From assembly GCF_018070025.1 (NCBI RefSeq), contig NZ_JAGPYQ010000002.1, positions 2,232,001-2,296,000 of the forward strand: 64,000 nt of DNA. Reading direction: 5' to 3'. The stretch comes from Streptomyces liliiviolaceus. GTDB lineage: Bacteria; Actinomycetota; Actinomycetes; Streptomycetales; Streptomycetaceae. Below, piece after piece: positions 14,099-56,717 of this stretch. Under the pieces are notes generated by a model that ran no database searches, was not told the DNA's origin, and saw only the letters and a program-made list of their open reading frames with translations. A program made the position numbers and the translations under genes. Every line of letters begins with the position of its first letter. The first letter of the stretch is position 1.

Positions 14099-16150
14099 TT
14101 GCGAGGATCCCCCACCGACCCCAGCACTTCCGCCCGGCACAGACGTGCCCGCCGGACCGCGGGTGCCGTCGCCTCGGCCGCACTGCTGCTGCCCCTGCTC
14201 GGTGCCGCCCCGTACGACGGCGACGGCAGCCCGGCGTCCGCGCCCTCCGCGCGTCTGCAGAATGCTTTCGCCGACGCCGCCGATGACTACGACGTACCGC
14301 AGAGCGTGCTCCTGGCCGTCTCCTATCTGCAGTCCCGGTGGGACGCGCACGAGGGGGCTCCGAGCGTCACGGGCGGCTACGGCCCGATGCATCTGACCGA
14401 CGCCCGCACGGCGATCGCCCGGACCGTGGCACCGCACCACAGCGACGGTACGGAGGACGCGCGGGGCGACGACTCCCGCGGCCCCCGCCTGCCCGACGCT
14501 CAGGATCCGGACACGCGGGAGTCGGGCACGCAGGAGTCGGGCACGCCGGAGTCGGACACGCGGGTTCCGGCGAACGCCGAGCTTCCGGCGCGCCTCAAGA
14601 CGCTGACGAAGGCCGCCGAGCTGAGCGGCCTTCCCGCGGAGCGGCTGCGGACGGACGCCGCGGCGAACGTGGCGGGCGGTGCCGCGCTGCTGGCGGCGGC
14701 CCAGAAGCAGCTGGGCGAGCCGCTCAGTGCCGACACGGCCGACTGGTACGGAGCGGTGGCGCGCTACTCGGGCGCCGACGACACGGCGACGGCGGCGACG
14801 TACGCCGACGACGTCTTCGACGTGATCCGCCGCGGCGAGGAGCGCACGACGGACTCGGGGCAGCGGATCACGCTCGCCGCTCAGCCCCGATTGCGGCCGG
14901 CGACCGCCCAGTTGAGGGCGGCGGGGCTGCGGGCTCCGGCGGCGGGCACCACCGAGTGTCCGTCGACGGTGTCCTGCGAGTGGATTCCGGCGCCGTACGA
15001 GGAGTTCGGGGACGGCGACTACGGCAACCACGACCTGGGGAACCGGCCGAAGTCCCAGAGCATCAAGTACATCGTCGTCCATGACACCGAGGGCGCCTGG
15101 GACGGCGTCCTCAACCTGGTGCAGGACCCGACCTATGTGTCGTGGCAGTACACCCTGCGCTCCACCGACGGGCACATCGCCCAGCACGTGAAGGCCAAGG
15201 ACGTGGCCTGGCACGCGGGCAACTGGTACATCAACGCCAAGTCGATCGGCCTGGAGCACGAGGGGTTCCTGACCGCGCCCGACACCTGGTACACGGAGGC
15301 GATGTACCGGTCGTCCGCGCGTCTGGTGACGTACCTGGCCAAGAAGTACGGCATCCCGCTGGACCGGCAGCACATCCTCGGCCACGACACCGTGCCCGGT
15401 ACGACGACCGCGACCATCCCGGGGATGCACACGGACCCGGGCCCGTACTGGGACTGGCAGCACTACTTCGCGCTGCTCGGCAAGCCGCTGCACGCGACGG
15501 CCGGGCCGAAGGGCGGGCTGGTGACCGTCGCGCCGAAGTTCGCCGTGAACCAGCCGGTGTTCACCGGGTGCGTCACGGCGGGTCAGCCCTGTGCCGCCCA
15601 CGGATCCAGCGCCGTACGCCTCTACACCGAGCCGCGCGAGGACGCCCCGCTGATCAAGGACATCGGTCTGCGGCCCGGCGGCGGTGACTCCACCACCGAT
15701 GTGAACGACCTGGGTTCGCGGGTCTCCACCGGTCAGCGGTACGCGGTCGCCGGGCGCGACGGCGACTGGACCGCGATCTGGTACCTCGGCCAGAAGGCCT
15801 GGTTCAAGAACCCGGCCAAGCAGCCGACGGCGGTGGACGCGGCCGGTGCCGTCATCACCCCGAAGGCCGGGCTGACCGACATCCCGGTGTACGGGCGGGC
15901 GTACCCGGAGAAGGAGGCGTACCCGGAGGGTGTGCCCGTCCAGTCGGTGTCGCCGCTGCCGTACAAGCTGCTCGCGGGGCAGAAGTACGCGGTCGGTGAC
16001 AAGGTGCCCGGCGAGTACTTCTACGCGCCGACCTTCGACACGACACCGCACCGGGTGGTACGGGGTTCGGACATGTACTACGAGATCCAGTTCGGGCACC
16101 GGGTGGCGTTCGTCCGGGCCGCCGATGTGCGGGTGATGCCGTCCGCGTGA
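14099..16150 (+). CDS. Secreted N-acetylmuramoyl-L-alanine amidase (Amidase_2/PGRP) with extra N- and C-terminal domains
   Basis: A 683-residue exported cell-wall hydrolase that should cleave the lactyl-amide bond between N-acetylmuramic acid and the stem peptide. After the signal peptide (RRTAGAVASAALLLPLLGAAP), residues 55-105 and 170-260 look like a lysozyme-like helical domain (DDYDVPQSVLLAVSYLQSRW, GGYGPMHLTD), separated by a hydrophilic insert containing three imperfect ESGT repeats (DNA 14517-14563). The amidase domain covers about 320-460: KYIVVHDTEG with the first zinc His, WHAGNW, ILGHDTVPG and MHTDPGPYWDW. SH3-like modules follow. It starts with TTG at 14099 behind AGGAGG (spacing about 6); no better ATG or GTG exists. 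Confidence 0.9.
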   Translation: MRGSPTDPSTSARHRRARRTAGAVASAALLLPLLGAAPYDGDGSPASAPSARLQNAFADAADDYDVPQSVLLAVSYLQSRWDAHEGAPSVTGGYGPMHLTDARTAIARTVAPHHSDGTEDARGDDSRGPRLPDAQDPDTRESGTQESGTPESDTRVPANAELPARLKTLTKAAELSGLPAERLRTDAAANVAGGAALLAAAQKQLGEPLSADTADWYGAVARYSGADDTATAATYADDVFDVIRRGEERTTDSGQRITLAAQPRLRPATAQLRAAGLRAPAAGTTECPSTVSCEWIPAPYEEFGDGDYGNHDLGNRPKSQSIKYIVVHDTEGAWDGVLNLVQDPTYVSWQYTLRSTDGHIAQHVKAKDVAWHAGNWYINAKSIGLEHEGFLTAPDTWYTEAMYRSSARLVTYLAKKYGIPLDRQHILGHDTVPGTTTATIPGMHTDPGPYWDWQHYFALLGKPLHATAGPKGGLVTVAPKFAVNQPVFTGCVTAGQPCAAHGSSAVRLYTEPREDAPLIKDIGLRPGGGDSTTDVNDLGSRVSTGQRYAVAGRDGDWTAIWYLGQKAWFKNPAKQPTAVDAAGAVITPKAGLTDIPVYGRAYPEKEAYPEGVPVQSVSPLPYKLLAGQKYAVGDKVPGEYFYAPTFDTTPHRVVRGSDMYYEIQFGHRVAFVRAADVRVMPSA

Positions 16151-16174: not shown

Positions 16175-17029
16175 TCAGGACTCGATCCGGCGCAGCCGCT
16201 CGGCGTCGCAGGTGCGCGGGCAGGTGGCGCAGGCCTCGGCGGGGCGGATCGTGTAGTAGAGGCAGCAGCCCATACGGGTGCGGGTCGGGTGTTGCCGGCC
16301 GTCGCCGCCGGTGAGATGGCGGAAGTCCGCGCCACCGGGGAAGGGCGCGACGGCGGAGGGCAGCAGCGCGGTGGCGGCCCGCACGGAGTCCGGTTCCCGG
16401 CCGAGCATGCGGCCGAGGTACCAGATACCGGAGACGAGGTCGTCGGTGACCAGGCCCCACAGCGCGCGCGGGCCGCGCCGGATGTAGGGACCGATCGCGG
16501 AGAGCAGCGGCTCCATGTGGTCGGCGACGGCGACCCTCAACTCCGCCCGCAGTGCTTCCTCGTGAGGAACAGTCAGAACGCCGGGGAGCACGCCGGCCGA
16601 GTCGTCCGGCAGACAGGCCAGGTCCGACCCGGGGGTGATCTCGAACGTGCCGGACGACAGCTCGATCCACACGTCCTCGGGGCGCACACGCGGCACCCGG
16701 CCGGTGAGATACCAGACGCCGCTCATCAGCAGGCCGACCGACCACGCGTAGTCGTGCAGGGCGCGGGACGCGGCGACATCGCGGCGCGGGACGTGGTCGT
16801 AGCGTTCCCGGATGCGGGAGTCCTCGGCCGACAGGAACGCCTCAAGGGCCTCCTGATTCTTCGTCAACTCCGCGCCGCTCAGGCCCGTTCGAGTGAAGTC
16901 CGATGCCGGGTCCGCCATGCGCACCGTCAACGCCGGGCACACCTGGACCAGTTGCCGATACGTGTCGGAGAGCAGGCCTGACACGGTCGTGGGCGCACCG
17001 GTCGACACGGTCTCCAGGGCCACGGTCAT
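16175..17029 (-). CDS. FhuF-like ferric siderophore reductase with C-terminal 2Fe-2S motif
   Basis: A 284-residue protein ending in MGCCLYYTIRPAEACATCPRTC. This CC-x(10)-C-x2-C pattern binds a [2Fe-2S] cluster in FhuF-type reductases, which release iron from imported siderophores in the cytoplasm. The middle carries GVWYLTGRVPRV and GPYIRRGPRALWGLVTDDL, seen in the actinobacterial siderophore-iron reductase group. The ATG at 17029 follows AGGAG at 6 bases. It is divergent from the siderophore synthesis genes, and the shared promoter region contains an iron box, so both sides should be induced by iron limitation. Confidence 0.85.
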   Translation of the reverse strand: MTVALETVSTGAPTTVSGLLSDTYRQLVQVCPALTVRMADPASDFTRTGLSGAELTKNQEALEAFLSAEDSRIRERYDHVPRRDVAASRALHDYAWSVGLLMSGVWYLTGRVPRVRPEDVWIELSSGTFEITPGSDLACLPDDSAGVLPGVLTVPHEEALRAELRVAVADHMEPLLSAIGPYIRRGPRALWGLVTDDLVSGIWYLGRMLGREPDSVRAATALLPSAVAPFPGGADFRHLTGGDGRQHPTRTRMGCCLYYTIRPAEACATCPRTCDAERLRRIES

Positions 17030-17062
17030 CGGTACTCCTGTGCATGGGGGAAAGCAGGAAAA

Positions 17063-17081
17063 GCAGGTAAGCCTTACCTTA
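17063..17081. promoter_or_regulatory. Iron box (DmdR1/IdeR-type operator)
   Basis: AGGTAAG and CTTACCT (17065-17071, 17073-17079) form a 7-base inverted repeat around one central base, matching the core of actinobacterial DtxR-family sites (TTAGGTTAGGCTAACCTAA type). It lies 36 bases upstream of the FhuF-like start and about 100 bases upstream of the ATP-grasp start. A TATACT-like -10 for the minus-strand gene and TAGTAT for the plus-strand gene lie just beside it. Fe-loaded repressor bound here should shut both promoters. Confidence 0.8.
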
Positions 17082-17181: not shown

Positions 17182-18501
17182 ATGCCTAACCTGATTTCAC
17201 TTAATGTGACTGCGCCCGAACAGGCCGCACCTGCGCGGGCAGAGCCCTGCCTCACCACGCCCCACCGGCCTGCCGCTCGTCCTCACCCGCCCACCCACGA
17301 GCGGAAGTTGTTCTCCCGCGTGCGTATGTACCTGCTTGCCCGTAACCCCACCGACTCCGTCACCGAGGGGTTTCTGCCCGCCGCGGCACGGCTCGGCCTC
17401 GACGTGACCGTGCTCACCGACCAGCCGGACACCCATCGGCGCGTGTACCCGGAGACGGACATCGTGGAGTGCGACGTCCGCGACTTCCGTTCCGTCGTCA
17501 CCGCCGTCTCGACGCTCGGCCGCCCCGACGCGATCTTCTCCAACAGCGACCATCTGCAGACCCAGACCGCGCTGGCCGCCGACTACTTCGGTCTGCCGGG
17601 CAAGGACTGGCGGGTCGCCCTGCGGACCAAGGACAAGGCGGAGATGCGGCGCCGTCTCGCGTCCGCCGGCCTGGACGCGGTGTGGTCGGCGGAGGTCGCC
17701 GAGGACACGGACGTGGCCGCCCTCGCCGCGCCGTTCCCGTGTGTCGTCAAGCCGCGTGAGGGCGTGGCCAGCGAGGACGTCGTACGCGTCGAGGACCTCG
17801 GGGAGCTGGTGGCCCGCTGCGCGGAGATCCATGGCCGACGTCCCGGGGCCGCCCTGGTCGTCGAGGAGTATCTGCCCGGCGAGCTGTACACCCTGGAGAC
17901 GCTCGGCGACGGCCGAATCCGCCATGTCCTGGGCGGCTTCCACACCGTGCTGTCCCCGCCGCCGTACTTCATCGAGGAGCGACTGACCTTCGTCGCGGCC
18001 CATCCCGAGCCGGTCGTCGCCCAGGTGCTCGCCCAACTCGACGCACTCGGGGTCGGTTTCGGCGCCTGTCACACCGAGTTCGTGGTGCACGAGGGACGCG
18101 CGAGGATCATCGAGGTCAACTACCGTGCCATAGGCGACCAGTGCGATCTGCTGCTGGCACACCTGCTGGATGTCCCGCTCTTCGAGCACATCCTGCGTAC
18201 GCACCTGGGTGAGCCCCTGCCCGCCTCGCTCGGAGCGCGGCGCGACGGCGTGGCCCGCCTGGACTACCCGTACGCCGAGAGCGCGGGCACGCTGACGGCG
18301 GCCCCGGCCGCGACCGAACTCGACTCCGGCGGGGTGCGGTTGACCTACCGGCCGCTCCGCGAGATCGGTGAGCGGCACGAGGTGTACCGCACCAACCGCG
18401 ACTTCCTCGGCGTGGTGCGGGCCATCGGGACCGTCCAGGAGGACGTGGACAAGGCTGTGGCCGGGTTCCTGGCCGGTCAGCGGTGGGACATCCAGCCGTG
18501 A
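17182..18501 (+). CDS. ATP-grasp amide ligase of a vibrioferrin-type siderophore pathway (PvsA/XssA-like)
   Basis: A 439-residue ATP-grasp enzyme. An N-terminal pre-ATP-grasp region (LARNPTDSVTEGFLPAAARL) is followed by CVVKPREGVASEDV (nucleotide-binding lysine), LVVEEYLPGELYTLET and RARIIEVNYRAIGDQCDLLL (metal-binding Glu/Asn). In vibrioferrin synthesis the equivalent enzyme PvsA ligates an amino acid (alanine) to the citryl-ethanolamine intermediate; the same role is inferred here. The ATG at 17182 precedes MPNLISLNV; its ribosome site (GAGAAAC) is poor, and a GTG at 17107 in the same frame is an alternative. Its stop overlaps the next start (GTGA), showing translational coupling. Confidence 0.8.
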   Translation: MPNLISLNVTAPEQAAPARAEPCLTTPHRPAARPHPPTHERKLFSRVRMYLLARNPTDSVTEGFLPAAARLGLDVTVLTDQPDTHRRVYPETDIVECDVRDFRSVVTAVSTLGRPDAIFSNSDHLQTQTALAADYFGLPGKDWRVALRTKDKAEMRRRLASAGLDAVWSAEVAEDTDVAALAAPFPCVVKPREGVASEDVVRVEDLGELVARCAEIHGRRPGAALVVEEYLPGELYTLETLGDGRIRHVLGGFHTVLSPPPYFIEERLTFVAAHPEPVVAQVLAQLDALGVGFGACHTEFVVHEGRARIIEVNYRAIGDQCDLLLAHLLDVPLFEHILRTHLGEPLPASLGARRDGVARLDYPYAESAGTLTAAPAATELDSGGVRLTYRPLREIGERHEVYRTNRDFLGVVRAIGTVQEDVDKAVAGFLAGQRWDIQP

Positions 18502-20258
18502 TCGGTTCCGAGGGCGCACTGGTGATCCGGGTGCTCGGCGCCCTGCTGCGCGAGGACGTCGTCGGCCTGCGCTCGTCGGGCAGACTCGTGCACCGCCCGG
18601 ACGGCGCCTGGCTGCGACGGGACGCCGGTGAGGGGCAGGCGTTTCTGCTGCCGGTCGTCGAGGACGGGTTCCAGTGCGAGTACGCGGCACGACTGCCGTT
18701 GCTCGTAGCGGAGTTCAGTGGCTCCGAGGAGTCCGTGTCCTACCTGTCGTGCGACACGATCCTCGCCGCCCTGCGCGGTCTCGCCCACCCCCTCGACCGG
18801 GACGGATTCGACGCGTTCGCCGAGGAGTGCCGTCAGACGCTGGCCACCATGCGGCTGCACACGGCGGTCCGCGACGAGGTGGCCGGGCGGCTGACGGACA
18901 CTCATGGACATTCGCCCGCAGGCTGGTCGGGGATGTCCGGAGGGCTGGCGTACGACACCCTCGCCGCCCACCTGGACCATCCCGTCTACCCCACGGCCCG
19001 CGGCCGATCCGGGCTGGACGAGCGCCAACTCCGCTCGTACGCGCCGGAGATGGCTCCGCGCTTCGCACTGCGCTGGCTCGCGCTGCCGCAAGACGCTGTC
19101 GCGGTCACCGGAACGCTTCCGGAGGGCTGGCCCACCCCCGCGCGGCTCGGGCTCACGGGCCTCGACGGCACGCATGTGGCCCTGCCCGTGCACCCGTTGA
19201 CCGTCGGGCCCGCGCTGGAGGAGGCCCTGCGCGCGACCGGGGCGGCGGACCGGGCCGTGCTCGCCGACCGGGCCCACCTCGACGTCGTACCGACCCTGTC
19301 GATGCGTACCGTGGCCCTGACCGCCCAGCCGCTCCTGCACGTCAAACTCCCTTTGGCCACCGCCAGCTTGGGGCTGCGCAACCGGCGGACCATCAAGCCC
19401 GGCACGCTCCTCGACGGGGCCGCGGGACAGCGTCTGATCGAGCAGATCGTCGACCGCGAGCCGCGCTTCGCGCGCACGATCCTGCACGCCGACGAGACCG
19501 TGTACGCGCATGCCGGGCACGAACTGCTCGCCGCCCTGTTCCGCCGGTACCCCGACGGCCTCCAGGACTCCGCCGTCGTACCCATGGCCGCCCTCCTGGC
19601 CGAAGCACCGGGCGGACGGCTGGTCGCCGACCACCTCGCCGACCGTTTCTACGACGGTGACGTCCTCGGGCTGCTCGACGCGTGTCTGACCCTGCTCTTC
19701 GACTGGCAGACCACCCTGTTCGGGTACGGGATCGCGCTTGAGTCGCACCAGCAGAACATCTCGCTGGTGCTGGACCGGCGGCCCGACGGCCGTACCCGGC
19801 TGCGGCTGCTGTTGAAGGACAACGACGGGCCGCGCATCAACGGCGCGCGGCTGGGCGAGCGGCTGGGGGCCGCGGCGCCGGGCCCCGCGGACTTCGACGA
19901 CGTCAGGACCTTCACCGACGGCGACCGGCCGGTCGTCGACCTGTTCACCACCATCACGGTCCATCTGTGCGCGGGCGCCTACGCCTTCGGGCTCGCGGGG
20001 CACGGCCGGGCACCCCTGCCGGTGCTGCTGCGGCTCGTGCGCGACCGGCTCGCCGAGGCGATCGAACGACTCGGTACGGGGACCGGCGAACCCGGTGCCG
20101 TGCTGCGGGCCCAGGTGCTGGACGCGCCGCGCCTGCCGGTCAAGGCGATGGTCACCGCCGGAACGCTCCTCAGCAAGGAACGCTCGGGCGCGGCGGACAT
20201 CAACAAGCACTACACCAGCGGGCCCAACTACCTGCTCCGCGCCGGGACTTCGGCATGA
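18498..20258 (+). CDS. IucA/IucC-family NIS siderophore synthetase (first of two)
   Basis: A 586-residue NRPS-independent siderophore synthetase. Visible family blocks are DHPVYPTARGRSGL (the HPxxP-type ATP-loop), VALPVHPLTVGP, TLSMRTVAL with TASLGLRNRRTIKP, and the catalytic block LESHQQNISLVLDRR with LLLKDNDGPRIN, followed by a FhuF-like C-terminal region. These enzymes adenylate a carboxylate of citrate or a dicarboxylate and join it to an amine or alcohol. By position it corresponds to PvsB/XssB, which in vibrioferrin adds the 2-oxoglutarate part. The GTG at 18498 overlaps the previous stop (GTGA). The next gene starts after 99 bases, where vibrioferrin operons carry an MFS exporter gene. 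Confidence 0.85.
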   Translation: MIGSEGALVIRVLGALLREDVVGLRSSGRLVHRPDGAWLRRDAGEGQAFLLPVVEDGFQCEYAARLPLLVAEFSGSEESVSYLSCDTILAALRGLAHPLDRDGFDAFAEECRQTLATMRLHTAVRDEVAGRLTDTHGHSPAGWSGMSGGLAYDTLAAHLDHPVYPTARGRSGLDERQLRSYAPEMAPRFALRWLALPQDAVAVTGTLPEGWPTPARLGLTGLDGTHVALPVHPLTVGPALEEALRATGAADRAVLADRAHLDVVPTLSMRTVALTAQPLLHVKLPLATASLGLRNRRTIKPGTLLDGAAGQRLIEQIVDREPRFARTILHADETVYAHAGHELLAALFRRYPDGLQDSAVVPMAALLAEAPGGRLVADHLADRFYDGDVLGLLDACLTLLFDWQTTLFGYGIALESHQQNISLVLDRRPDGRTRLRLLLKDNDGPRINGARLGERLGAAAPGPADFDDVRTFTDGDRPVVDLFTTITVHLCAGAYAFGLAGHGRAPLPVLLRLVRDRLAEAIERLGTGTGEPGAVLRAQVLDAPRLPVKAMVTAGTLLSKERSGAADINKHYTSGPNYLLRAGTSA

Positions 20259-20357
20259 GCGTCGAGGCGCGGCGCTGCCGGCCCCCGCCCCGGCCGACGC
20301 CCCGATCTTCGGACGCTCGACCGTTCTTCGCTCTCTTCGCACTTGCTGGAGCCGCAC

Positions 20358-22178
20358 ATGCCCCCGCTGACCGACTCGCTCGGTAGCACCTCCCTCGCCA
20401 CCCCCCGCCGTACCCCCAGCCCCGCTCCCGACCCCGCGCCGCAGGCTCACCTCCCCACCGCCGACGAGGTCGTGGCGCACACGCTCCTCAACTGCCTGTT
20501 GCGCGAGGTGTCGGCCCCCGAGCACCAGACCGCCCTCACCGACCGCCATCTGCTGCTGCGGCTGCCCCGCCGCGGTGTGCTGCTGCGGGTCGCGCTGCGG
20601 CGTACGTCGATGCTCGGCGCGCACCGCTTCACCGGGCCGGTGAGTGAGCGGACGGCCGATGGCGGCTGGAGCGAGATCGGCTGGCGGCGGCTGGCGGAGC
20701 ACACACAGGACGAGCTGTCCCTGCGGACCGGTGTGCGCAACGAGGAGTTCCTGGAGCAGATCGACTCCAGCCACCGGAGTATCGCCGCGTCCTTCGCCGT
20801 ACGGGCCGGGGCTCACCGCGTGCGGCGCGGTACCGGCCCGGCAGCGGCGGACACACCCGTCGCCGCCTATCTGGCCTCCGAGCAGTCGCTGCTGTTCGGG
20901 CACCGCTTCCACCCCACACCCAAGGCCCGCACCGGGGACGCGGACTCCTGGCCCGCCTACGCGCCGGAGGCCGGCGCGGCCTTCCCGCTGCGCCACCTCG
21001 CCGTGCGCGAACACCTGATCGCGGAGGAGTCCGCGGAGCCCGGCGCCCTGGACGCACTCGACCGGCTGACCGCGCCCACCTCACTCCCCCAGGGCTACCG
21101 GCTGCTGCCCGCGCACCCCTGGCAGTACGAGATGCTGCGCGAGCACCCGACACTGCGCGCGGCTCTGGGACGCGGGGACATCCTCGACCTCGGGCAGACC
21201 GGCAGGCCGTTCGCCGCCACGGCGTCCGTGCGGACCCTGTACGACGGCGAGTCGTTCCTGAAGTTCAGCCTGAACATCAGGATCACCAACTGCCTGCGCA
21301 AGAACGCCAGTTACGAGCTGTCCGGCGCCGTCGCGCTCACCCGGGTACTGGGTCCGGTCCTGGCCGACCTGGCCGAGCGGTTCCCCGGCAGCGCGGTGCT
21401 CCGCGAGCCCGCCTACCGCAGTCTCGCCCTGGCAGGACCCGACGGAACACCGGACCGCGAGCTGCTCGAAGGCTTCGGCGTCATCGTCCGCGAGGGCCTG
21501 GCCCACCGGCTCCTGCCCGGCACCACCCCACTGCTCGCGGGCGCCGTGGCGGACGAGTACCCCACCAGCGCCGCGCACATCTCCCGGCTCCTCGACGGGG
21601 CCGGACCGCGGGCCGCACTCGACTGGTGGGCGGCCTACCTCAGGCTCCTCGTGCCGCCCGTGCTCGCCGCCTACTTCGACCACGGCCTCGTACTGGAACC
21701 CCACTTGCAGAACGTGCTGATCTGCGTCGACGGCGACGGCATGCCCGCCCAGGTCCTCTTCCGTGACCTGGAGGGCACCAAGCTCGTGCCCGAGCGGCAC
21801 GCCGAGACCCTCGCCTCGCTGCCGCCCGAGGTCGCGGGCCCGATGACGTACGACGCGCAGCGCGGCTGGGACCGGGTCGTCTACTGCCTGCTCGTGAACC
21901 ACGTCGCCGAACTGCTCGCGGCCATCGCCGATCTCCATCCCCGCGCCGAGGCCGCGTTGTGGGCCGAGGTCCGCGGCGCCCTGCGCACGTACGCCGACCG
22001 CTACGGCTGCCCTCCGCCGCTGGCCGCCCTGCTCGCGGGAGTGCCCCTGCCCGCCAAGACGAACCTGCTGACCCGCTGGGCGCGCAAGGCCGACCGCGAG
22101 GCCGGATACGTCCGTCTGCCCTCGCCCCTCGGCGAACCGGTCACTGCCGCCGCCACCGCCCCCGGGAGCGCCCGATGA
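20358..22178 (+). CDS. IucA/IucC-family NIS siderophore synthetase (second of two)
   Basis: A 606-residue NIS synthetase, distinct from the preceding one. It shows FGHRFHPTPKARTGD (ATP-loop with HP.pK.R.G), LLPAHPWQYEML, ATASVRTLYDGESFLKFSLN with RITNCLRKNASYELSG, and the C-terminal block GLVLEPHLQNVLICVD with FRDLEGTKLV. The canonical HP, RT, SLNIRITN, HxQN and RD residues are all present, so it should be active. It corresponds to PvsD/XssD, reported to condense citrate with L-serine in vibrioferrin synthesis. The ATG at 20358 has GGAG at 6 bases. Its stop overlaps the next gene's ATG (ATGA). Confidence 0.88.
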   Translation: MPPLTDSLGSTSLATPRRTPSPAPDPAPQAHLPTADEVVAHTLLNCLLREVSAPEHQTALTDRHLLLRLPRRGVLLRVALRRTSMLGAHRFTGPVSERTADGGWSEIGWRRLAEHTQDELSLRTGVRNEEFLEQIDSSHRSIAASFAVRAGAHRVRRGTGPAAADTPVAAYLASEQSLLFGHRFHPTPKARTGDADSWPAYAPEAGAAFPLRHLAVREHLIAEESAEPGALDALDRLTAPTSLPQGYRLLPAHPWQYEMLREHPTLRAALGRGDILDLGQTGRPFAATASVRTLYDGESFLKFSLNIRITNCLRKNASYELSGAVALTRVLGPVLADLAERFPGSAVLREPAYRSLALAGPDGTPDRELLEGFGVIVREGLAHRLLPGTTPLLAGAVADEYPTSAAHISRLLDGAGPRAALDWWAAYLRLLVPPVLAAYFDHGLVLEPHLQNVLICVDGDGMPAQVLFRDLEGTKLVPERHAETLASLPPEVAGPMTYDAQRGWDRVVYCLLVNHVAELLAAIADLHPRAEAALWAEVRGALRTYADRYGCPPPLAALLAGVPLPAKTNLLTRWARKADREAGYVRLPSPLGEPVTAAATAPGSAR

Positions 22179-23440
22179 CTGACCCCACCGACGCCGTACG
22201 GGACCGGGTGCTCGCCCTCCCCTCCGGTGAACTTCCGGCTTACGTCTACGACTTGGCGGCGCTGCGTGCTCACGCGGCGGCCGTGCGGGCCTGTCTGCCC
22301 GAGCGCGTCGAGCTGTACTACGCGGCGAAGGCCAACCCGGAGCCGGAGATCCTGGCCGCGCTGAGTGCGTACGTGGACGGTTACGAGGTCGCGTCGGGCG
22401 GCGAACTCGCCCATGTCGCCGAGGCGGTGCCGGGCCGCCCGCTGGCCTTCGGCGGTCCCGGCAAGACTCCCGCCGAGATCGTGGCCGCGCTGGACCTCGG
22501 TGTGGAGCGCTTCCATGTGGAGAGCGAGTACGAGCTGCGCATGCTGGCCGAACTGGCCCGGCAGGTGCGCCCCGGCGGCCGGGTGGGAGTGCTGCCGCGT
22601 TTCAATCTTCCGGTCGCCGCGGGCTCGTTGGCGGGGAGTTCCCTCGCCATGGGCGGGCGCCCCTCCCCCTTCGGCCTGGACCCGGCCCGGGCCGACACGG
22701 TCATGGGCCTGCTCACCGACGGCACGTATCCTCATCTCGAACTCAAGGGTGTGCACGCCCACCTGGTCAGCGGACTGAGGGCTCCTGAGCTGCTCGCGGT
22801 GGCCGAGTCGATCGTGGACTGGTCCGTGCGGCTGGCGGAGCGGCACGGGGTACACCTGGCGGAGGTGAATGTCGGCGGGGGCATGACGGTCGATTACGCG
22901 GCCCCCGACGAACGCTTCGACTGGGCCGCGTACGGGACCGGTCTCGCCCGACTTCTGGCACGGCACAGCGATCTGACGTTGCGTATCGAACCAGGGCGGG
23001 CGCTGACGGCGTACTGCGGCTGGTACGCGACCGAGGTCCTGGACGTGAAGCCGAGTCACGGCGAGGAGTTCGCGGTGGTCCGCGGCGGCACGCATCACCT
23101 GCGCACTCCGGCGACCAAGGGGCACGACCAGCCCTGCACCCTGCTCAAGGTGGAGGACTGGCCGCATCCGTGGGACCGGCCGGTCGTGCGAGGCGAACTC
23201 GTCACACTCGCAGGCCAGTTGTGCACCCCGAAGGACGTCCTGGCCAGGAACGTCCCCGCATCGGAACTGCGCGCCGGCGATCGTGTGGCGTTCGGGCTGG
23301 CGGGTGCCTACGCGTGGAACATCTCCCACCACGACTTCCTCATGCACCCGCGACCCGGTTTCCACTTCCTCGGTGCGCCGGGCCGAGTGTCCGGTCGGCA
23401 CCGGGTTCCTCAAGCGCCGGGCGGTGCGCCCCAGACGTAG
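22175..23440 (+). CDS. Type III PLP-dependent decarboxylase of the siderophore operon (PvsE/XssE-like)
   Basis: A 421-residue alanine-racemase-fold decarboxylase related to diaminopimelate decarboxylase: YYAAKANPEPEIL supplies the PLP lysine, YEVASGGELAHV and FGGPGKTPAEI follow, then GVHAHLVSGL (PLP-stacking His region), VNVGGGMTVDY, LRIEPGRALTAYCGWYATEV and GQLCTPKDVLA with the catalytic-type Cys. In the vibrioferrin pathway PvsE removes the carboxylate of the citryl-serine intermediate to leave ethanolamine. The ATG at 22175 overlaps the previous stop and has GGGAG at 7 bases. Its last 31 bases overlap the end of the convergent GH95 gene. Confidence 0.85.
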   Translation: MTDPTDAVRDRVLALPSGELPAYVYDLAALRAHAAAVRACLPERVELYYAAKANPEPEILAALSAYVDGYEVASGGELAHVAEAVPGRPLAFGGPGKTPAEIVAALDLGVERFHVESEYELRMLAELARQVRPGGRVGVLPRFNLPVAAGSLAGSSLAMGGRPSPFGLDPARADTVMGLLTDGTYPHLELKGVHAHLVSGLRAPELLAVAESIVDWSVRLAERHGVHLAEVNVGGGMTVDYAAPDERFDWAAYGTGLARLLARHSDLTLRIEPGRALTAYCGWYATEVLDVKPSHGEEFAVVRGGTHHLRTPATKGHDQPCTLLKVEDWPHPWDRPVVRGELVTLAGQLCTPKDVLARNVPASELRAGDRVAFGLAGAYAWNISHHDFLMHPRPGFHFLGAPGRVSGRHRVPQAPGGAPQT

Positions 23441-25881
23441 GTCCGGCCCGCGATCGCCTTGAACGTGGTCTCGCCGTCGGGCACCAGCCCGCTGCGGACG
23501 GTGAGGCGTCGCGTGCGGGAGGCGGTCAGGGCGACGCGGGTCGCGCGGCCGTCGGCCCATGCGATGTCGACGGTGGCGCCGCCGCGGGCGCGCAGCCCGC
23601 TGACCGAGCCGTCCCGCCAGGCGGCGGGCAGCGCGGGGAGAATCTCGATGATGTCGTACTGGCTCTGCAGCAGCATCTCGACGACTCCGGACGTCGCTCC
23701 GAAGTTGCCGTCGATCTGGAACGGCGGATGCGTGTCCCAGAGGTTGGGCAGGGTCGAGGACTTGAGCTGTTCGGCGAGCATCTTGTGCGCGTGGTCGCCG
23801 TCGCGCAGCCGCGCCCAGAAGTTGATCTTCCAGGCCTTGGACCAGCCGGTGCCGCCGTCCCCGCGTGCCGTGAGCGAGACCTTCGCGGCGTCGGCCCACG
23901 CGCTGCCGGGCTCGACCTGGCGGCCGGGGTGCAGCGCGTAGAGGTGGGAGACGTGCCGGTGGTCGTCCGCCGGGTCGTCCAGATCGGCCTTCCACTCCTG
24001 GAGCTGACCCCAGGAGCCGATACGCAGGCCGGGGTCCAGGTCGGCGAGGGTCCTCTCCAGTTCCGCGCGGAACGCGGGGCTGTCGCCCAGGGTGCGGGCC
24101 GCCTCCAGGGTGTTGGTCAGCAGGTCGTGCACGATCTGCTGGGACATGGCCGCGCCCGCGGTGAAGTCGCCGTGCTCGGGCGAGTAGCTGGGCGTGACGA
24201 CGAGCGTGCCGTCGCGGGGATCGGTGCGCAGGTTGTCGAGCCAGAACTCGGCGGCCTCCTTCATCACCGGGTACGCCGTCGAGCGCAGATACTCCACGGA
24301 CCCGCCGAACCGGTAGTGCTCGTACAGCTGTTGCGTCAGCCACGCGGCGGCCTCGGGGAACCAGAAGGCGGTGGGCCAGTCGTGCACGCCGGTGAAGCCG
24401 TACGGGTTGGTCTCGTTGTGCACGACCCAGCCCCGCGAGCCGAACATCTCCTTCGCCATAAGGCGTCCGGGTGCGCGCAGCGCCTCGACGAAGCGGTCGT
24501 AGGGCGCCGTGGTCTCGGCGAGGTTCGCGGCCTCGGCGGGCCAGTAGTTCATCTGCAGGTTGATGTTGACGTGGTAGTCGGCCGACCAGGGCGGTGACGT
24601 GCTGTTGTTCCAGAGGCCCTGGAGGTTGGCGGGCAGTGAGCCGGGGCGTGAGGAGGCGATCAGGAGGTAGCGGCCGTACTGGAAGTAGAGAGCTTCCAGG
24701 GCGCGGTCCGTGGCCGTGGCGCCGCCGGTGTAGTTCGCCAGCAGCTGGTCCGTCGGGACGTCGGGGACCTCGGCGCGTACGTCCAGCGCCACGCGGCCGA
24801 ACAGGGCCCGGTGATCTCGTACATGACGGGCCATCAACGTCTCGAAGCGTTCGCCGCCCGCCTTGTCGACGGCCCGGGTGACGGCCGCGTGCGGGTCCTC
24901 GCCCCGGTAGCCGGGGTACGTGTCGGCGTAGTCCGTACCGGCGGCCAGCACGAACCAGGCGCTGTCGGCGTCCGTCACGGTCAGAGTGCCGTCGGAGTTC
25001 GCGGTGACGGCGCCGCGCTCGCCGCTCACGCGGACGCGGAGCTGCGCCTCGAAGCGCAGTCCGTTGTCGGCCAGGGCGCCGCGCACCGTCAGCCTTCCGC
25101 CGGCCGCGGTGGTGGCGGACGTGACGGTGAAGTCGGTGCGGGGCGAGGTGTAACGGAGGGTGAGGGCGACACTGCCCGGCCGGTCCGCGCTCAGCCGTCC
25201 CGCGATCACCCCGTCGGGGTGCGAGGCGAAGAACTCCCGCCGGTGGCTCACCTCTTGGTGGGTGTGGACGACGGTCGCCACGGCGTCGGCGATGTCGAGT
25301 GCGCGTCGGTAGGTGTCCGGGGGCGTCGCCGGTGCGTCCGGCACGTCGATGTGGAGGTCGCCGAAGGTCTGGTGGGCGCCGTACCCGGCCTTCGGCTGGC
25401 CGAGTTCATCGGCGACGGCCTCGGGGTCGAGACGGGTCCCCGCGTCGATGCGGTCCTGCACGGCGGTGATCGCGCCGGGACGGGCGTCGCGCCAGTTGCC
25501 GTGGTCGTACCCCTGGACCGAACCGGGGCCGCCGGTCCAGAGGGTCTTCTCGTTGAGCTGCAGTCGCTCGGAGGCGAGCGTCCCGAAAACCGTGGCGCCG
25601 AGGGCGCCGTTGCCGATGGGCAGCGCCTCACGCTCCCAGTCGTCGGCCGGGGCGGTGTACCAGAGGGACGAGAGTCCGGGTGACGGTGGTGACGCCACCG
25701 CCGACACATCCGATGTATTTGGCGTATCCGCAGCCACCGCCTCTCCGGAACCAAGGGCGCCGGACCCCAGGGCGATACCGGCCGCACCGCCAACTGCGGT
25801 CCTCAGCGTGGCTCTTCGGGAGGGTAGGGAGAGTTCTCGGGTCGATCGCGCGTCGCGTGGTTCAGATGACTGAAACGACAT
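23410..25881 (-). CDS. Secreted glycoside hydrolase family 95 (alpha-L-fucosidase type)
   Basis: An 823-residue exported enzyme. The N-terminus has a Tat-like signal (SRRATLRTAVGGAAGIALGSGALG). The mature protein has the N-terminal beta-sandwich (WYTAPADDWEREALPIGNG, LQLNEKTLWTGGPG), a linker, the (alpha/alpha)6 barrel and a C-terminal beta domain. GH95 catalytic blocks are visible: VNINLQMNYWPAE (the two asparagines), TPSYSPEHG (Glu) and QIDGNFGATSGVVEM (Asp). It should release terminal alpha-L-fucose or L-galactose by inversion. The ATG at 25881 follows AGGGG at 3-4 bases; an upstream GTG frame is open but would bury the signal peptide. Confidence 0.92.
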   Translation of the reverse strand: MSFQSSEPRDARSTRELSLPSRRATLRTAVGGAAGIALGSGALGSGEAVAADTPNTSDVSAVASPPSPGLSSLWYTAPADDWEREALPIGNGALGATVFGTLASERLQLNEKTLWTGGPGSVQGYDHGNWRDARPGAITAVQDRIDAGTRLDPEAVADELGQPKAGYGAHQTFGDLHIDVPDAPATPPDTYRRALDIADAVATVVHTHQEVSHRREFFASHPDGVIAGRLSADRPGSVALTLRYTSPRTDFTVTSATTAAGGRLTVRGALADNGLRFEAQLRVRVSGERGAVTANSDGTLTVTDADSAWFVLAAGTDYADTYPGYRGEDPHAAVTRAVDKAGGERFETLMARHVRDHRALFGRVALDVRAEVPDVPTDQLLANYTGGATATDRALEALYFQYGRYLLIASSRPGSLPANLQGLWNNSTSPPWSADYHVNINLQMNYWPAEAANLAETTAPYDRFVEALRAPGRLMAKEMFGSRGWVVHNETNPYGFTGVHDWPTAFWFPEAAAWLTQQLYEHYRFGGSVEYLRSTAYPVMKEAAEFWLDNLRTDPRDGTLVVTPSYSPEHGDFTAGAAMSQQIVHDLLTNTLEAARTLGDSPAFRAELERTLADLDPGLRIGSWGQLQEWKADLDDPADDHRHVSHLYALHPGRQVEPGSAWADAAKVSLTARGDGGTGWSKAWKINFWARLRDGDHAHKMLAEQLKSSTLPNLWDTHPPFQIDGNFGATSGVVEMLLQSQYDIIEILPALPAAWRDGSVSGLRARGGATVDIAWADGRATRVALTASRTRRLTVRSGLVPDGETTFKAIAGRTYVWGAPPGA

Positions 25882-25982
25882 GACCCCTGACGCTAGAGGT
25901 CCGATCACCCGAGCGGCAAGGGTCATGACAAAGACGGTGTGCGGCGGAGAGGTGGCTCACCCGCTGGAGGGGTTCAGGAGGT

Positions 25983-53183: not shown

Positions 53184-54041
53184 CTATGGTCCGACTTTGT
53201 ACGGTGCGGGGCGCGAGCCGGGGCCGAGCCGTGACATGGCGCGGATAATGTGTTTGGGCGGCAGTTGCCAGCGCAGACGTGCGGGAACGCAGCGCAGCAC
53301 GGTGCCCGTGAGGCGCAGCCGGCGGGTCACCGCCCGGGTCGACCGTACGGATCTTCCGTACAACTCATGGGCGTGGGGCGGCAGTGAGGCGTACGCGGTC
53401 TGCGCCACCCAGCGCCACAGCAGGGCCCGCGCCGGGACCAGCAGCGGGTGGACGGGCGGTCTGCGCAGGAAGTCGTCGACGTCCCGCGCCTCCGGTCCTG
53501 CGGTCAGTTCCGGCCGCGTCTTCTCGAAGTAGGCGGCCAGTTCCGCCTGGTCGGACGGTACGTCGGCGGGGTCGAGGCCCACCAGGCGTGCGCTGACGCG
53601 GTGTTCGCCGATGTACCGGTCGGCCTGCGCGTCCGTGAGCCGGAGGCCGGAGCGGCGCAGGACGTGCAGATAGGAGTCGATCTCGGCGCAGTGGACCCAC
53701 AGCAGCAGCGCGGGTTCGTCGATGCCGTAGCGCTCGCCCGTGCCGGGGTCGGTCGCCGTGAGCATCGTGTGGATCCTCCGCACGCGCGCACCCGCCTTCT
53801 CGGCCGCCTCCTTCGTCCCGTACGTGGTGGTGCCGACGAAGTGGGCCGTCCTCATCAGCCGGCCCCAGGCGTCCTTGCGGAAGTCGGAGTTCTGCATGAC
53901 ACCGCGCACCGCGCGCGGATGGAGCGCCTGGAGGTAGAGCGCGCGGATCCCGGCGACCCACATCATGGGGTCGCCGTGCAGTTGCCAGGTCACGGAGTCC
54001 GGACCGAACAGACCCGGATCGCCGTGGTGCTCCCCATCCAT
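53184..54041 (-). CDS. MpaB/DUF2236-family oxygenase
   Basis: A 285-residue protein of the family that includes rubber oxygenase Lcp and fungal MpaB, probable heme-dependent oxygenases. Marks are WVAGIRALYLQALHPRAVRGV (with the conserved HP), RLMRTAHFVGTTTYGTKEAAEKA (R...T..Y..), RIHTMLTATDPGTGERY and LLLWVHCAEIDSYLHVL, where the conserved His near WVH is the likely heme ligand region. The C-terminus (PPHAHELYGRSVRSTRAVTRRLRLTG) is also family-like. It is divergent from the diiron monooxygenase operon with 140 bases between starts, so the two may share control. The substrate is unknown. Confidence 0.85.
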   Translation of the reverse strand: MDGEHHGDPGLFGPDSVTWQLHGDPMMWVAGIRALYLQALHPRAVRGVMQNSDFRKDAWGRLMRTAHFVGTTTYGTKEAAEKAGARVRRIHTMLTATDPGTGERYGIDEPALLLWVHCAEIDSYLHVLRRSGLRLTDAQADRYIGEHRVSARLVGLDPADVPSDQAELAAYFEKTRPELTAGPEARDVDDFLRRPPVHPLLVPARALLWRWVAQTAYASLPPHAHELYGRSVRSTRAVTRRLRLTGTVLRCVPARLRWQLPPKHIIRAMSRLGPGSRPAPYKVGP

Positions 54042-54092
54042 GGATGCAACCGTAACGGCCCTTTCTGCTTACCGACACGCATATGGCGCGGG

Positions 54093-54105
54093 CACCGTCG
54101 CGGTG
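54093..54105. promoter_or_regulatory. Short palindrome in the MpaB/tmo divergent promoter region
   Basis: CACCG and CGGTG are inverted around TCG, 77 bases before the tmoA start and 51 before the MpaB-family start. It could be an operator, but GC-rich palindromes this short arise by chance. Confidence 0.3.
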
Positions 54106-54181
54106 ATAGCCATGAGTGGACGTCACCGATCGGCACAGGCCGGTGGTACGAGCCGGCACCCCGTACGGAGGGAGACGGCGC

Positions 54182-55699
54182 ATGCCGCGTCTTGCCCGTT
54201 CCGAGTGGTACGACCTGACCCGTGACATGAACTGGTCCCTGTCCTATGTCAAGGAGGAGGAGGTCTGGCCGGCCGAGCTCTCCGACGGCTTCGGGCTGCC
54301 GGCCGAGGCGTGGTGGGTGTGGGACGAGCCGTACAAGGTCACGTACCCGGAGTACGTGCACAACCAGTACGGCAAGGACGCCGGTGTCTACGCGGTCAAC
54401 GCCGTCATCGGGCGGTCGAAGGTGTACGAGCAGCTGGATCCGGGGTGGAAGTCGGCGATCATCGCGCACTACGGCGTGATCGCGATCCCGGAGTACCTGG
54501 CGAGTCTCGCGGAGTCCCGGATGGGCCGGTTCGGGCGCGCGGCTGCGTGGCGGAACATGGCGACCTTCGGCACCCTCGACGAGATGCGCCACGGCCAGAT
54601 CCAGACCTACTTCCCCCACGGGCTGCTGGCCAGGGAGCCGCGGGCGGACTGGGCGCACAAGGCGCTGCACACGAACGAGTGGGGCGCGGTCGCCGCCCGC
54701 AGCCTGTTCGACGACATGTTCACCGCGAACGACGCGGTGTCCACGGCCGTCCAGCTGACCTTCACGTTCGAGACCGGGTTCACCAACCTGCAGTTCCTCG
54801 GGATGGCGGCGGACGCCATGAAGGTCGGGGACGTGGACTTCGGGGCGCTGATCTCGTCGATCCAGACCGACGAGGCCCGGCACTCCCAGCAGGGGGAACC
54901 GACCATCAAGCTCCTGGTGGAGCACGGCCGCAAGGATGCCGCGCAGCAGCTGGTGGACCACATGTTCTGGCGGTCGTGGCGGCTCTTCGCCCTGCTGACC
55001 GGGCTGTCGATGGACTACTACACGCCGCTGGAGCACCGCGGCCACTCCTTCAAGGAGTTCATGCAGGAGTGGATCTGCAAGCAGTTCCTGGACCAGTTCC
55101 GTGACTTCGGCCTGGAGAAGCCCTGGTACTGGGACGAGCACTTCCTGCCCGAACTCGACTGGTACCACCACGCCCTTCAGCTCGGCATCTGGTACTGGCG
55201 CCCGACCGTCTGGTGGAACCCCGACGCGGGTGTCGCTCCCGAGGAGCGGGAGTGGCTCGAAGAGAAGTACCCGGGCTGGCACGACACCTTCGGCGGGCAC
55301 TGGGACGTCATCGCCGCGAACCTCAGGGCGGGCCGTCCGGAGGCCACCCTGCCCGAGACGTTCCCCATGATCTGCAATCTGTGTCATGTCCCGGTGGTGG
55401 CGCCCGCCGGATACCGGGCGGGCAGGCTCGCCAGCCCGCTGCCGAAGATCCTCGACCGGGACGGGCGCCGGTACGTCTTCTGCTCGGCGCCCTGCCAGTG
55501 GGTCTTCGAACAGGCTCCGCGGCGCTTCCAGGGGCACACCACCGTCATCGACCGGTTCCTCGGCGGGCAGATCCAGCCGCCGACGATGGAGGGCGCGCTG
55601 GCCTACATGAGCCTGTCGCCGGAGGAGATGGGCCGGGACGCCACCGACTACGCCTGGGCGCAGGCCGCACCCGACGACCACGCCGCCGCCCGCGGCTGA
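54182..55699 (+). CDS. tmoA: Toluene-4-monooxygenase-type hydroxylase alpha subunit (diiron)
   Basis: A 505-residue catalytic subunit of a soluble diiron monooxygenase. The first 240 residues align with T4MO hydroxylase without a gap: the diiron ligands fall at Glu104, Glu134, His137 (TLDEMRHGQ), Glu197 (TFETGFTNLQF), Glu231 and His234 (QTDEARHSQQ), and the active-site Thr is Thr201. Later blocks also match (MDYYTPLEHRGHSFKEFM, KPWYWDEHFL, GIWYWRPTVWWNP, RFLGGQIQPPTMEGAL). At 103, a Gly in T4MO that affects regioselectivity, this protein has Pro. It should hydroxylate an aromatic or epoxidise an alkene. The ATG at 54182 follows GGAGGGAG. Confidence 0.93.
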   Translation: MPRLARSEWYDLTRDMNWSLSYVKEEEVWPAELSDGFGLPAEAWWVWDEPYKVTYPEYVHNQYGKDAGVYAVNAVIGRSKVYEQLDPGWKSAIIAHYGVIAIPEYLASLAESRMGRFGRAAAWRNMATFGTLDEMRHGQIQTYFPHGLLAREPRADWAHKALHTNEWGAVAARSLFDDMFTANDAVSTAVQLTFTFETGFTNLQFLGMAADAMKVGDVDFGALISSIQTDEARHSQQGEPTIKLLVEHGRKDAAQQLVDHMFWRSWRLFALLTGLSMDYYTPLEHRGHSFKEFMQEWICKQFLDQFRDFGLEKPWYWDEHFLPELDWYHHALQLGIWYWRPTVWWNPDAGVAPEEREWLEEKYPGWHDTFGGHWDVIAANLRAGRPEATLPETFPMICNLCHVPVVAPAGYRAGRLASPLPKILDRDGRRYVFCSAPCQWVFEQAPRRFQGHTTVIDRFLGGQIQPPTMEGALAYMSLSPEEMGRDATDYAWAQAAPDDHAAARG

Positions 55700-55775
55700 C
55701 GCCGGGGCCGACGACTCGAACGAACCGGATGTACGTGATGACCCGGCCGACCCGGGCGGAAGGGAAGGCTCGGCG

Positions 55776-56024
55776 ATGGCGCTGTTTCCTCTGCAGGCCC
55801 TGTTCGACGGGGACCTGGTGGTGCTGCTGGTCCCGGTGGACGACGCGGACCCGATGACCGTGGTCGCCGACAAGGTGGCCCACCATGTGGTCGACCGCCG
55901 GGTGGCGGCGCAGGACCGGCCGCTGCGGGTGCGGCACGACGGGAGGACACTGCCCGACGACGCCACCGTGGTGAGCGCGGGTGTGAAGCCGCTGGACGTG
56001 GTGGTCGTGGGGTACGCCTCATGA
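55776..56024 (+). CDS. tmoB: Monooxygenase hydroxylase gamma subunit (TmoB-like)
   Basis: An 82-residue ubiquitin-like subunit: MALFPLQALFDGDLVVLLVPVDDADPM, VADKVAHHVVDRRV, PLRVRHDGRTLPDDATVVSAGVKPLDVVVVGYA. Size and pattern match T4moB (84 residues), a small beta-grasp protein that packs on the hydroxylase. It begins 76 bases after tmoA behind GGGAAGG and its stop overlaps the Rieske gene start (ATGA). Confidence 0.88.
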   Translation: MALFPLQALFDGDLVVLLVPVDDADPMTVVADKVAHHVVDRRVAAQDRPLRVRHDGRTLPDDATVVSAGVKPLDVVVVGYAS

Positions 56025-56392
56025 GCGGCGCTCCGGTGCGGTGGTTCGACGTGCCGGAGGCCGAGGGGCTGTGGGAGGGCGATCTCGTCGAGGCCGAGGT
56101 CGCCGGTGAGCGGGTGCTCGTCGTGCACCACGTCGACGGGTCCTTCGCCGCCTACCAGGGGATGTGCCCGCACCAGGAGTTCCCGCTGGCCTACGGCAAG
56201 TGGGACGAGGAGGAGAACACCCTCACCTGCGCCGGACACGGCTGGGAGTTCGACCTGACCTCCGGCGCGGGCATCAACCCGTCCGGATGCCGGCTCCACC
56301 GGTACCCGATCCGGGCCACCGACGCGGGCGCCGTACGGATCGGTATCCCACAGGACGGCGAGGCCCGCCACGACAGCTCCCGAGAAGCGTGA
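56021..56392 (+). CDS. tmoC: Rieske ferredoxin of the monooxygenase (TmoC-like)
   Basis: A 123-residue Rieske [2Fe-2S] protein with Cys49/His51 (MCPHQEFPL) and Cys70/His73 (CAGHGWEFDLTSG) as cluster ligands. It should carry electrons from an NADH reductase to the diiron hydroxylase, as T4moC does. The presence of a Rieske protein separates toluene/alkene/isoprene monooxygenases from phenol and methane monooxygenases, which lack one. Confidence 0.93.
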   Translation: MSGAPVRWFDVPEAEGLWEGDLVEAEVAGERVLVVHHVDGSFAAYQGMCPHQEFPLAYGKWDEEENTLTCAGHGWEFDLTSGAGINPSGCRLHRYPIRATDAGAVRIGIPQDGEARHDSSREA

Positions 56393-56402
56393 GGACGAGA
56401 CG

Positions 56403-56714
56403 ATGACCGTATCCGGCACCGGTGCCGACAAGCGGGTGGGACCCGTGATCCGCGGCATCGACGGCGACCTCGCCGAGGCGGTGGCCGCCGCGATCGAACA
56501 GGACAATCCCGACGCCGAGGTGGCGGTCGACGATCAGGGCGGATACGTACGGATCAGCGTTCCCCGGCGGTGCGTGCTGACCCGCGCCAGCCTGGAGGAG
56601 GAGCTGGGCCGGGCGTTCCCGCTGAGTGAACTGGAGCCCGCGCTGGCGGCGTTCGCCGGGCGCCTCAAGCAGACCGACGAGCAGTTGGTCTGGTACCTGG
56701 AGAGGCAGGACTGA
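56403..56714 (+). CDS. tmoD: Monooxygenase effector (coupling) protein, MmoB/DmpM family (TmoD-like)
   Basis: A 103-residue cofactor-free protein, the same length as T4moD: VGPVIRGIDGDLAEAVAAAIEQDNPDAEVAVDDQGGYVRISVPRRC is family-like, followed by LTRASLEEELGRAFPLSELEPAL. It binds the hydroxylase surface and times substrate and oxygen access. The ATG at 56403 is 10 bases past tmoC behind GAGGACGAG, and tmoE follows after three bases. Confidence 0.9.
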   Translation: MTVSGTGADKRVGPVIRGIDGDLAEAVAAAIEQDNPDAEVAVDDQGGYVRISVPRRCVLTRASLEEELGRAFPLSELEPALAAFAGRLKQTDEQLVWYLERQD

Positions 56715-56717
56715 GCC

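Follow-up and report, generated by a model that had tools for sequence, protein, structure and literature searches.

The siderophore locus described here, a plus-strand run of four genes in a 64,000-nucleotide stretch of the Streptomyces liliiviolaceus genome (contig NZ_JAGPYQ010000002.1; the whole stretch is called the window below), has the vibrioferrin operons of Vibrio among its closest described relatives. In V. fortis (L008) and V. chagasii (L019), pvsABCDE encodes orthologues of the four window proteins, PvsA, PvsB, PvsD and PvsE, in identical order; unlike these operons, the window has neither the PvsC exporter nor adjoining uptake genes, and it carries an iron box and an FhuF-type gene. 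The Xanthomonas xanthoferrin operon, xss (L056, L081), entered our synthetase tree with both loci; L056 has the same enzymes in the same order, but differs from the window in holding a major facilitator superfamily (MFS) gene and, upstream, a match to the aldolase/citrate-lyase-family gene of other pvs loci. The A-B-(C)-D-E arrangement also occurs in another actinobacterium, on a plasmid of Rhodococcus sp. WAY2 (L011), where, unlike in the window, the MFS gene, the aldolase/citrate-lyase-family gene and siderophore ATP-binding cassette (ABC) importer genes are kept. The systems of Sodalis (L017) and Pseudonocardia (L016), which we presume, in part from an sbnA annotation, to be of achromobactin and staphyloferrin B type, use the same enzyme classes as the window, but in the stretches fetched there are three IucA/IucC genes, and none is annotated as ATP-grasp. 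For the window we rejected a gene set of either type, since those sets have three genes for synthetases of the siderophore class independent of nonribosomal peptide synthetases (NIS).

Systems of this kind have already been noted in Streptomyces, and the window holds a variant without transport genes. One study (PMC9394381) presents avsABCD of S. avermitilis (SAV7320-7323) as a cluster for a 'vibrioferrin-like' polyhydroxycarboxylate siderophore, and tabulates three synthetase components and a decarboxylase under consecutive numbers. S. avermitilis proteins are 78% (PvsA) and 76% (PvsB) identical to those of the window; we infer that P0114 and P0162 of this species are avs products and that avs carries no transporter gene. 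In two further reports, an antiSMASH region of S. tunisialbus is given with 18% similarity to vibrioferrin (PMC7385001) and xanthoferrin is named in a Streptomyces genome study (PMC13047742). Among the papers listed, mostly from outside subscription journals, we found none isolating such a product from Streptomyces or dealing with loss of its transport genes. A first-pass annotation of the window had set the locus apart from the desferrioxamine genes usual in Streptomyces. The genes are indeed of Pvs type, but a desABCD-like locus is present in the genome as well (L101), so that the vibrioferrin-type genes form an additional set; and to call them unusual in the genus was too strong, given that avs is published and that PvsA was found at E 1e-40 in 47 of 199 sampled Streptomyces genomes. 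In a phylum-wide sample, the same threshold retrieved PvsA from 3/396 genomes, all Streptomyces.

We consider it quite likely that the window locus is an iron-repressed operon which makes a carboxylate siderophore of vibrioferrin type and has been reduced through the loss of its genes for transport. As it stands, the operon is a transport-less variant and not a complete pvs operon. Its lineage would have deleted a FecBCD-type importer and a PvsC exporter that fuller Streptomyces loci hold, in which case the product would probably be carried by transporters encoded elsewhere in the genome. A streptomycete with des-like genes is thereby credited with a second, named pathway, whose product can be looked for specifically.

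Profile searches of the window's open reading frames gave, on the plus strand, an ATP-grasp enzyme, two IucA/IucC proteins and a pyridoxal phosphate (PLP) dependent decarboxylase (Table 1), in the order and of the types first annotated. The description of four coupled genes fits A/B and D/E, which overlap by 4 bp each (GTGA at 18498-18501 and ATGA at 22175-22178), but not B/D, between which lie 99 bp (20259-20357). Gene 1 had been started at 17182; since its nearest relatives begin to align at residue 44-47 of that frame, and PvsA relatives among the matches listed measure 390-410 residues, translation probably starts at 17320 or 17326. The ATG at 17182 sits within a stretch that resembles the importer-gene leader of fuller loci.

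Table 1. Features of the siderophore locus, in window coordinates
Feature	Positions	Strand	Remarks
FhuF-type [2Fe-2S] protein, probable ferric-siderophore reductase	16175..17029	-	PF11575 FhuF_C above cut-off
Iron box, DtxR/IdeR/DmdR-type operator (presumed)	17063..17081		2 mismatches to consensus
Probable FecCD-type importer scar	17184..17231	+	half second iron box + permease's first codons, GTG 17206
PvsA orthologue, ATP-grasp ligase	17320..18501	+	start GTG 17320 or ATG 17326
PvsB orthologue, NIS synthetase	18498..20258	+	PvsB clade 100/100
pvsC deletion scar	20255..20357		mostly gene's 3' end; less surely its first ~28 bp
PvsD orthologue, AcsD-type NIS synthetase	20358..22178	+	PvsD group; citrate + L-serine predicted
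PvsE orthologue, PLP decarboxylase	22175..23440	+	O-citryl-serine to O-citryl-ethanolamine predicted

Orthology of the four genes to PvsA, PvsB, PvsD and PvsE is supported by identities, trees and conserved columns. The reference operons are plasmid-borne (V. fortis L008, Pantoea soli L009, C. necator H16 L010, Rhodococcus L011 and Piscirickettsia L013), and the first gene of the Pantoea operon carries a PvsA annotation. Identities to five annotated operons were 33-52% for PvsA, 28-43% for PvsB, 30-47% for PvsD (Pantoea across 434 residues) and 40-54% for PvsE. Genes A, B, C, D and E stand in this order in 73 of 80 named genome loci among the matches listed; in the other seven a gene is missing or the order differs, some of them lying close to contig ends. 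Columns invariant in 17 Gram-negative rows are largely kept in the window (A 62/76, B 72/93, D 78/81, E 98/112), and few are fixed differently in the five actinobacterial rows (A 3, B 4, D 1, E 4). For PvsA, the assignment is based on identity and invariant columns, not on a tree.

The NIS synthetase tree comprised 57 rows, including Vibrio, Xanthomonas, Pseudomonas and other pvs loci, with no AlcC row. Gene 2 falls within the PvsB clade (support 100/100), which adjoins one Pseudonocardia and one Sodalis synthetase, and gene 3 within the actinobacterial PvsD group (100/99). A 24-row clade (98/96) unites 22 PvsD rows with a Sodalis protein, AcsD-like and weakly placed (92/76), and with L005, a NIS protein of the window genome. 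The genome's DesD-like protein (L001, so labelled from the families of its neighbour genes) lies apart from both Pvs clades, and synthetases of DesD type were therefore rejected; the comparison with PvsB/PvsD and DesD proposed in the first-pass annotation thus came out on the Pvs side. Among solved structures, the closest relative of gene 3 is AcsD (E=1.4e-74), against 2.2e-19 for the alcaligin enzyme 2x0o; gene 2 finds best an IucA/IucC protein, 7cbb (1.9e-12), and its top NCBIfam match, SbnC, is far under cut-off. For the decarboxylase, too, the sequence comparison favours the first-pass reading: it is 27-31% identical to the genome's three LysA proteins, scores 169 and 168.3 bits with NCBIfam lysA where the cut-off is 297.9 bits, and in a quick tree clusters with PvsE rows and with its counterparts from the Sodalis and Pseudonocardia loci, away from the three LysA. 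A LysA-type enzyme was rejected on these grounds.

The transport genes behave differently from the synthesis genes. Of 46 fetched Streptomyces loci, 42 complete ones were kept, the presence of A, B, D and E being the condition for inclusion; those dropped were L122, with no more than A and B, L139 and L157, which lie at contig ends, and L150, whose matches are broken, and G150 stands outside the set. PvsC was counted present if its match exceeded 200 residues, so that L142 passes (229) and L143 counts as lacking it (90), while L110 was taken as importer-positive despite short matches to the permease (136) and ATPase (72). In most loci of the fuller type, a reverse FhuF gene is followed by those for the FecCD permease, its ATPase and the binding protein, then by A and B, the MFS exporter C, and D and E. 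Sixteen loci have both the exporter and the importer's binding protein, 25 have neither, one has the exporter alone and none the binding protein alone. On a 47-row tree of joined A, B, D and E, the exporter trait requires nine changes, of which starred branches force eight, and eight are required for the binding protein; in eight independent pairs differing in the exporter, the binding protein differs in the same direction in seven and not at all in one (p 0.0156). This tree, like that of the decarboxylase, is a quick one, with Shimodaira-Hasegawa-like approximate likelihood ratio support only and long-branch warnings; a careful 24-row tree gives six forced changes and p 0.0625, from too few pairs.

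We lean, by a narrow balance of judgement, towards the view that Streptomyces discarded exporter and importer jointly and repeatedly, retaining the synthesis genes, with the FhuF-type reductase also kept in roughly half of the stripped loci. Among the papers listed, mostly open-access, we found no prior publication of this joint, repeated absence. If it is true, the product would use shared transporters or serve outside the cell as a chelator open to all, which reverses the familiar 'cheater' strategy of giving up synthesis while retaining uptake. It also raises the question whether a siderophore pathway can persist on borrowed transporters, and on which.

The window locus is of the stripped type. 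The pvsA-pvsB-(pvsC)-pvsD-pvsE pattern seen at first reading is matched by A, B, D and E orthologues in order, but there is no pvsC in the operon or, at the cut-offs used, in the genome. Between B and D, where the PvsC exporter would stand, only a scar is found. A whole-genome PvsC search at E 1e-20 recovered the protein in 8/8 genomes with an in-place copy and in 0/12 others, the window genome among the latter; a relocated PvsC was thus rejected, all eight positive controls having been recovered. A separate search, which had no positive control, likewise gave no PvsC. Importer and exporter genes of the fuller loci have no match within window positions 9001-31000, where importer queries from these loci found no dedicated uptake genes beside the operon, and no transporter families occur among the neighbouring open reading frames scanned (8.9-17 kb and 23.4-31.3 kb). 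Relatives of the binding protein at 65% identity or more were restricted to 7 of these 20 genomes, each with an in-cluster binding protein. The best relative in the window genome (37%) has a pair of FecCD genes and an iron box beside it (L158; C1, ~266 kb), which makes this importer a candidate substitute for the lost uptake genes.

An ABC half-transporter adjoins FhuF in fuller loci and has an 87% relative elsewhere in the window genome (L170:8211-9995), with the nearest iron box about 5 kb off (L170:3121). It was considered as the operon's exporter; it is not claimed as a part, because relatives at 80% or more occur in 9 of 10 genomes searched, full or stripped (the best in G174 is 54%). In three related stripped loci (L118:5998-7566, L138 and L151), another MFS gene is divergent from PvsA and is possibly a replacement exporter. 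The full cluster L144 has, 3' of E, a 72% match to the Rhodococcus aldolase/citrate-lyase-family protein (15304-16059, oriented).

The window seems to retain remnants of both transport gene sets. Positions 20285-20360 align with the 3' end of pvsC of L109 over 59/76 bp (score 67, where 100 shuffles reached at most 29), and 20255-20282 weakly with the start of pvsC of L112 (34 against 31). The B-D gap also scores 34 over 32 with L119, at an internal position of pvsC, and is not above shuffles with pvsC of L110, L111, L114, L115 or L121. Before A, 17184-17231 aligns at the DNA level with the importer leader of L111 (score 51; best of 100 shuffles 33) and matches those of L110, L112, L114, L115 and L109, not those of L119 and L121. 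From GTG 17206 the window reads VTAPEQAAPA, where the permease starts VTATQQGAPP; the second iron box, half of which is probably left here, was found in L171.

These remnants bear on whether the full clusters instead gained transport genes several times, a reading that we regard as very improbable. The eight to nine parsimony changes carry no direction, and a relic scan of 28 exporter-less loci had seven gaps that were too short and, among the 21 testable, 13 above shuffles and eight not. The scan is biased towards real gaps (best of 17 targets, against best of eight for shuffles), and where a match covers no more than the ~50 bp adjoining the start of D (L113, L123, L149), it may be D's leader. 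Against gain stand the pvsC remnants themselves, longer in L143 (348 bp), L012 (125 bp) and L147 (90 bp, 5' part) than the 76 bp of the window, and an MFS gene at the same position in the Vibrio, Pantoea, Cupriavidus, Rhodococcus and Piscirickettsia operons. L109, in which the exporter is retained and the permease reduced to a 56-residue match, is an intermediate between full and stripped loci. L108, the nearest relative fetched, has a B-D gap similar to that of the window and is also without both transport sets; L109 on one side, L108 and the window on the other, thus offer a natural comparison of close relatives with and without transport genes.

Loss of transport could also have come first in a general decay that left synthesis useless. 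The pvsC scar and the probable importer scar agree with this, as do two partial or broken loci among those fetched (L122, L150). All four frames are open, however, the iron box is retained, and ratios of nonsynonymous to synonymous substitution (dN/dS, Nei-Gojobori) between the window and L108, both stripped, are low (A 0.24, B 0.29, D 0.29, E 0.15, FhuF 0.20). If the similar gaps of the two loci go back to one deletion, these low ratios speak for selection that persisted after the transport genes were lost. The frequency of stripped loci, 25/42, is no test of decay, as possession of A, B, D and E was what qualified a locus for the set. We find a decaying relic unlikely, and keep to a probably working pathway reduced by transport-gene loss.

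The divergent FhuF-type gene and one iron box appear to belong to the operon's unit. The FhuF-type reading frame was searched as 16175-17032, with its ATG at 17029; a 68% identical protein stands at the same site in S. chartreusis (L012), and the gene is present in 27/42 complete Streptomyces loci and absent from 3/17 that bear the exporter. The iron box is the sole match at three or fewer mismatches in the 64 kb, with none in 100 shuffles, and is read as a presumed DtxR-family site. Boxes also lie in the operon leaders of S. chartreusis L012 (1 mismatch), Embleya L014 (2), Nonomuraea L015 (1) and Rhodococcus L011 (3), and a perfect one precedes the genome's des-like genes. A DtxR-family repressor bound here would control the operon and the divergent reductase together, predicting repression of the operon by iron, and the reductase would release iron after uptake. 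At the FhuF position, Embleya has a gene for a SIP-type FAD protein (L014:5658-6554), divergent from the same operon and without similarity to the window's FhuF, so that a reductase of a different type occupies this site. In Nonomuraea, the gene divergent from the operon is of the NUDIX family.

The biosynthetic route can be outlined from AcsD. In PMC3323832, E442 of AcsD is proposed to act as general base, and in the authors' model the serine carboxylate is contacted by R501 and K563; with serine, mutants E442D, E442Q and R501A were inactive and K563A had reduced activity. Residues E447, R506 and K567 of gene 3 correspond to these three (alignment, counted by hand), and equivalents are present in 23/23 rows of the D alignment. 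As gene 3 keeps these serine-contacting and catalytic residues, citrate and L-serine are our best guess as substrates of its step, the first in the route. The PvsD orthologue would adenylate citrate and esterify it with L-serine, as AcsD does, and the PvsE orthologue would decarboxylate citryl-serine to O-citryl-ethanolamine. The free amine could then receive an amino acid from the PvsA orthologue, which in vibrioferrin is alanine, and the PvsB orthologue would acylate this residue with a dicarboxylate, 2-oxoglutarate or one like it. We base this predicted order on the activity measured for AcsD, and on amides being the usual products of ATP-grasp enzymes.

Several points weigh against this route and against the reading as a whole. 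In two reviews (PMC5577590, PMC6836290), PvsE acts on free serine, PvsB and PvsD form amides and PvsA an ester, and one of them states that functions of the Pvs enzymes are still untested. The vibrioferrin-type product is a prediction from the genes. Of the scars, that of the importer is short, with only ~26 bp of permease coding sequence, and so is the 5' portion of that of pvsC. PvsB keeps the lowest share of invariant columns, so that the amino acid or the dicarboxylate may differ from that of vibrioferrin, and AcsD also accepts 2,3-diaminopropionate (PMC3323832). It is hence quite conceivable, if rather less than an even chance, that the four enzymes make a related citrate siderophore other than vibrioferrin, with another amino acid or dicarboxylate, or with diaminopropionate in place of serine. 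In favour of such an analogue, amines serve AcsD roughly twice as well as do the corresponding alcohols (PMC3323832); on the other side, no diaminopropionate (SbnA-type) gene is found among the scanned neighbours, unlike in Pseudonocardia L016. The differently fixed actinobacterial columns do not single out PvsB, whose pattern is explicable by divergence alone.

Outside the operon, the nearest neighbours are an amidase gene (14099-16150) and a GH95 glycoside hydrolase gene (23410-25926). Elsewhere in the genome, a PvsD-like NIS gene of the actinobacterial PvsD group, 36% identical to the window's PvsD, lies at L099:8270-11637 (C1, ~7.096-7.100 Mb), divergent from another NIS gene and next to malate synthase, VWA and HipA-like genes; L099 has no iron box, and neither an ATP-grasp enzyme nor a decarboxylase is among the six proteins scanned there. 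A further locus without an iron box (L100; C1, ~7.753-7.772 Mb) has IucA/IucC genes (L002, L003) beside a class III aminotransferase gene. Within the window, 53184-57788 encodes two chains of phenol/alkene-hydroxylase type (PF02332), with an MpaB-type gene nearby, and may represent a soluble diiron monooxygenase cluster.

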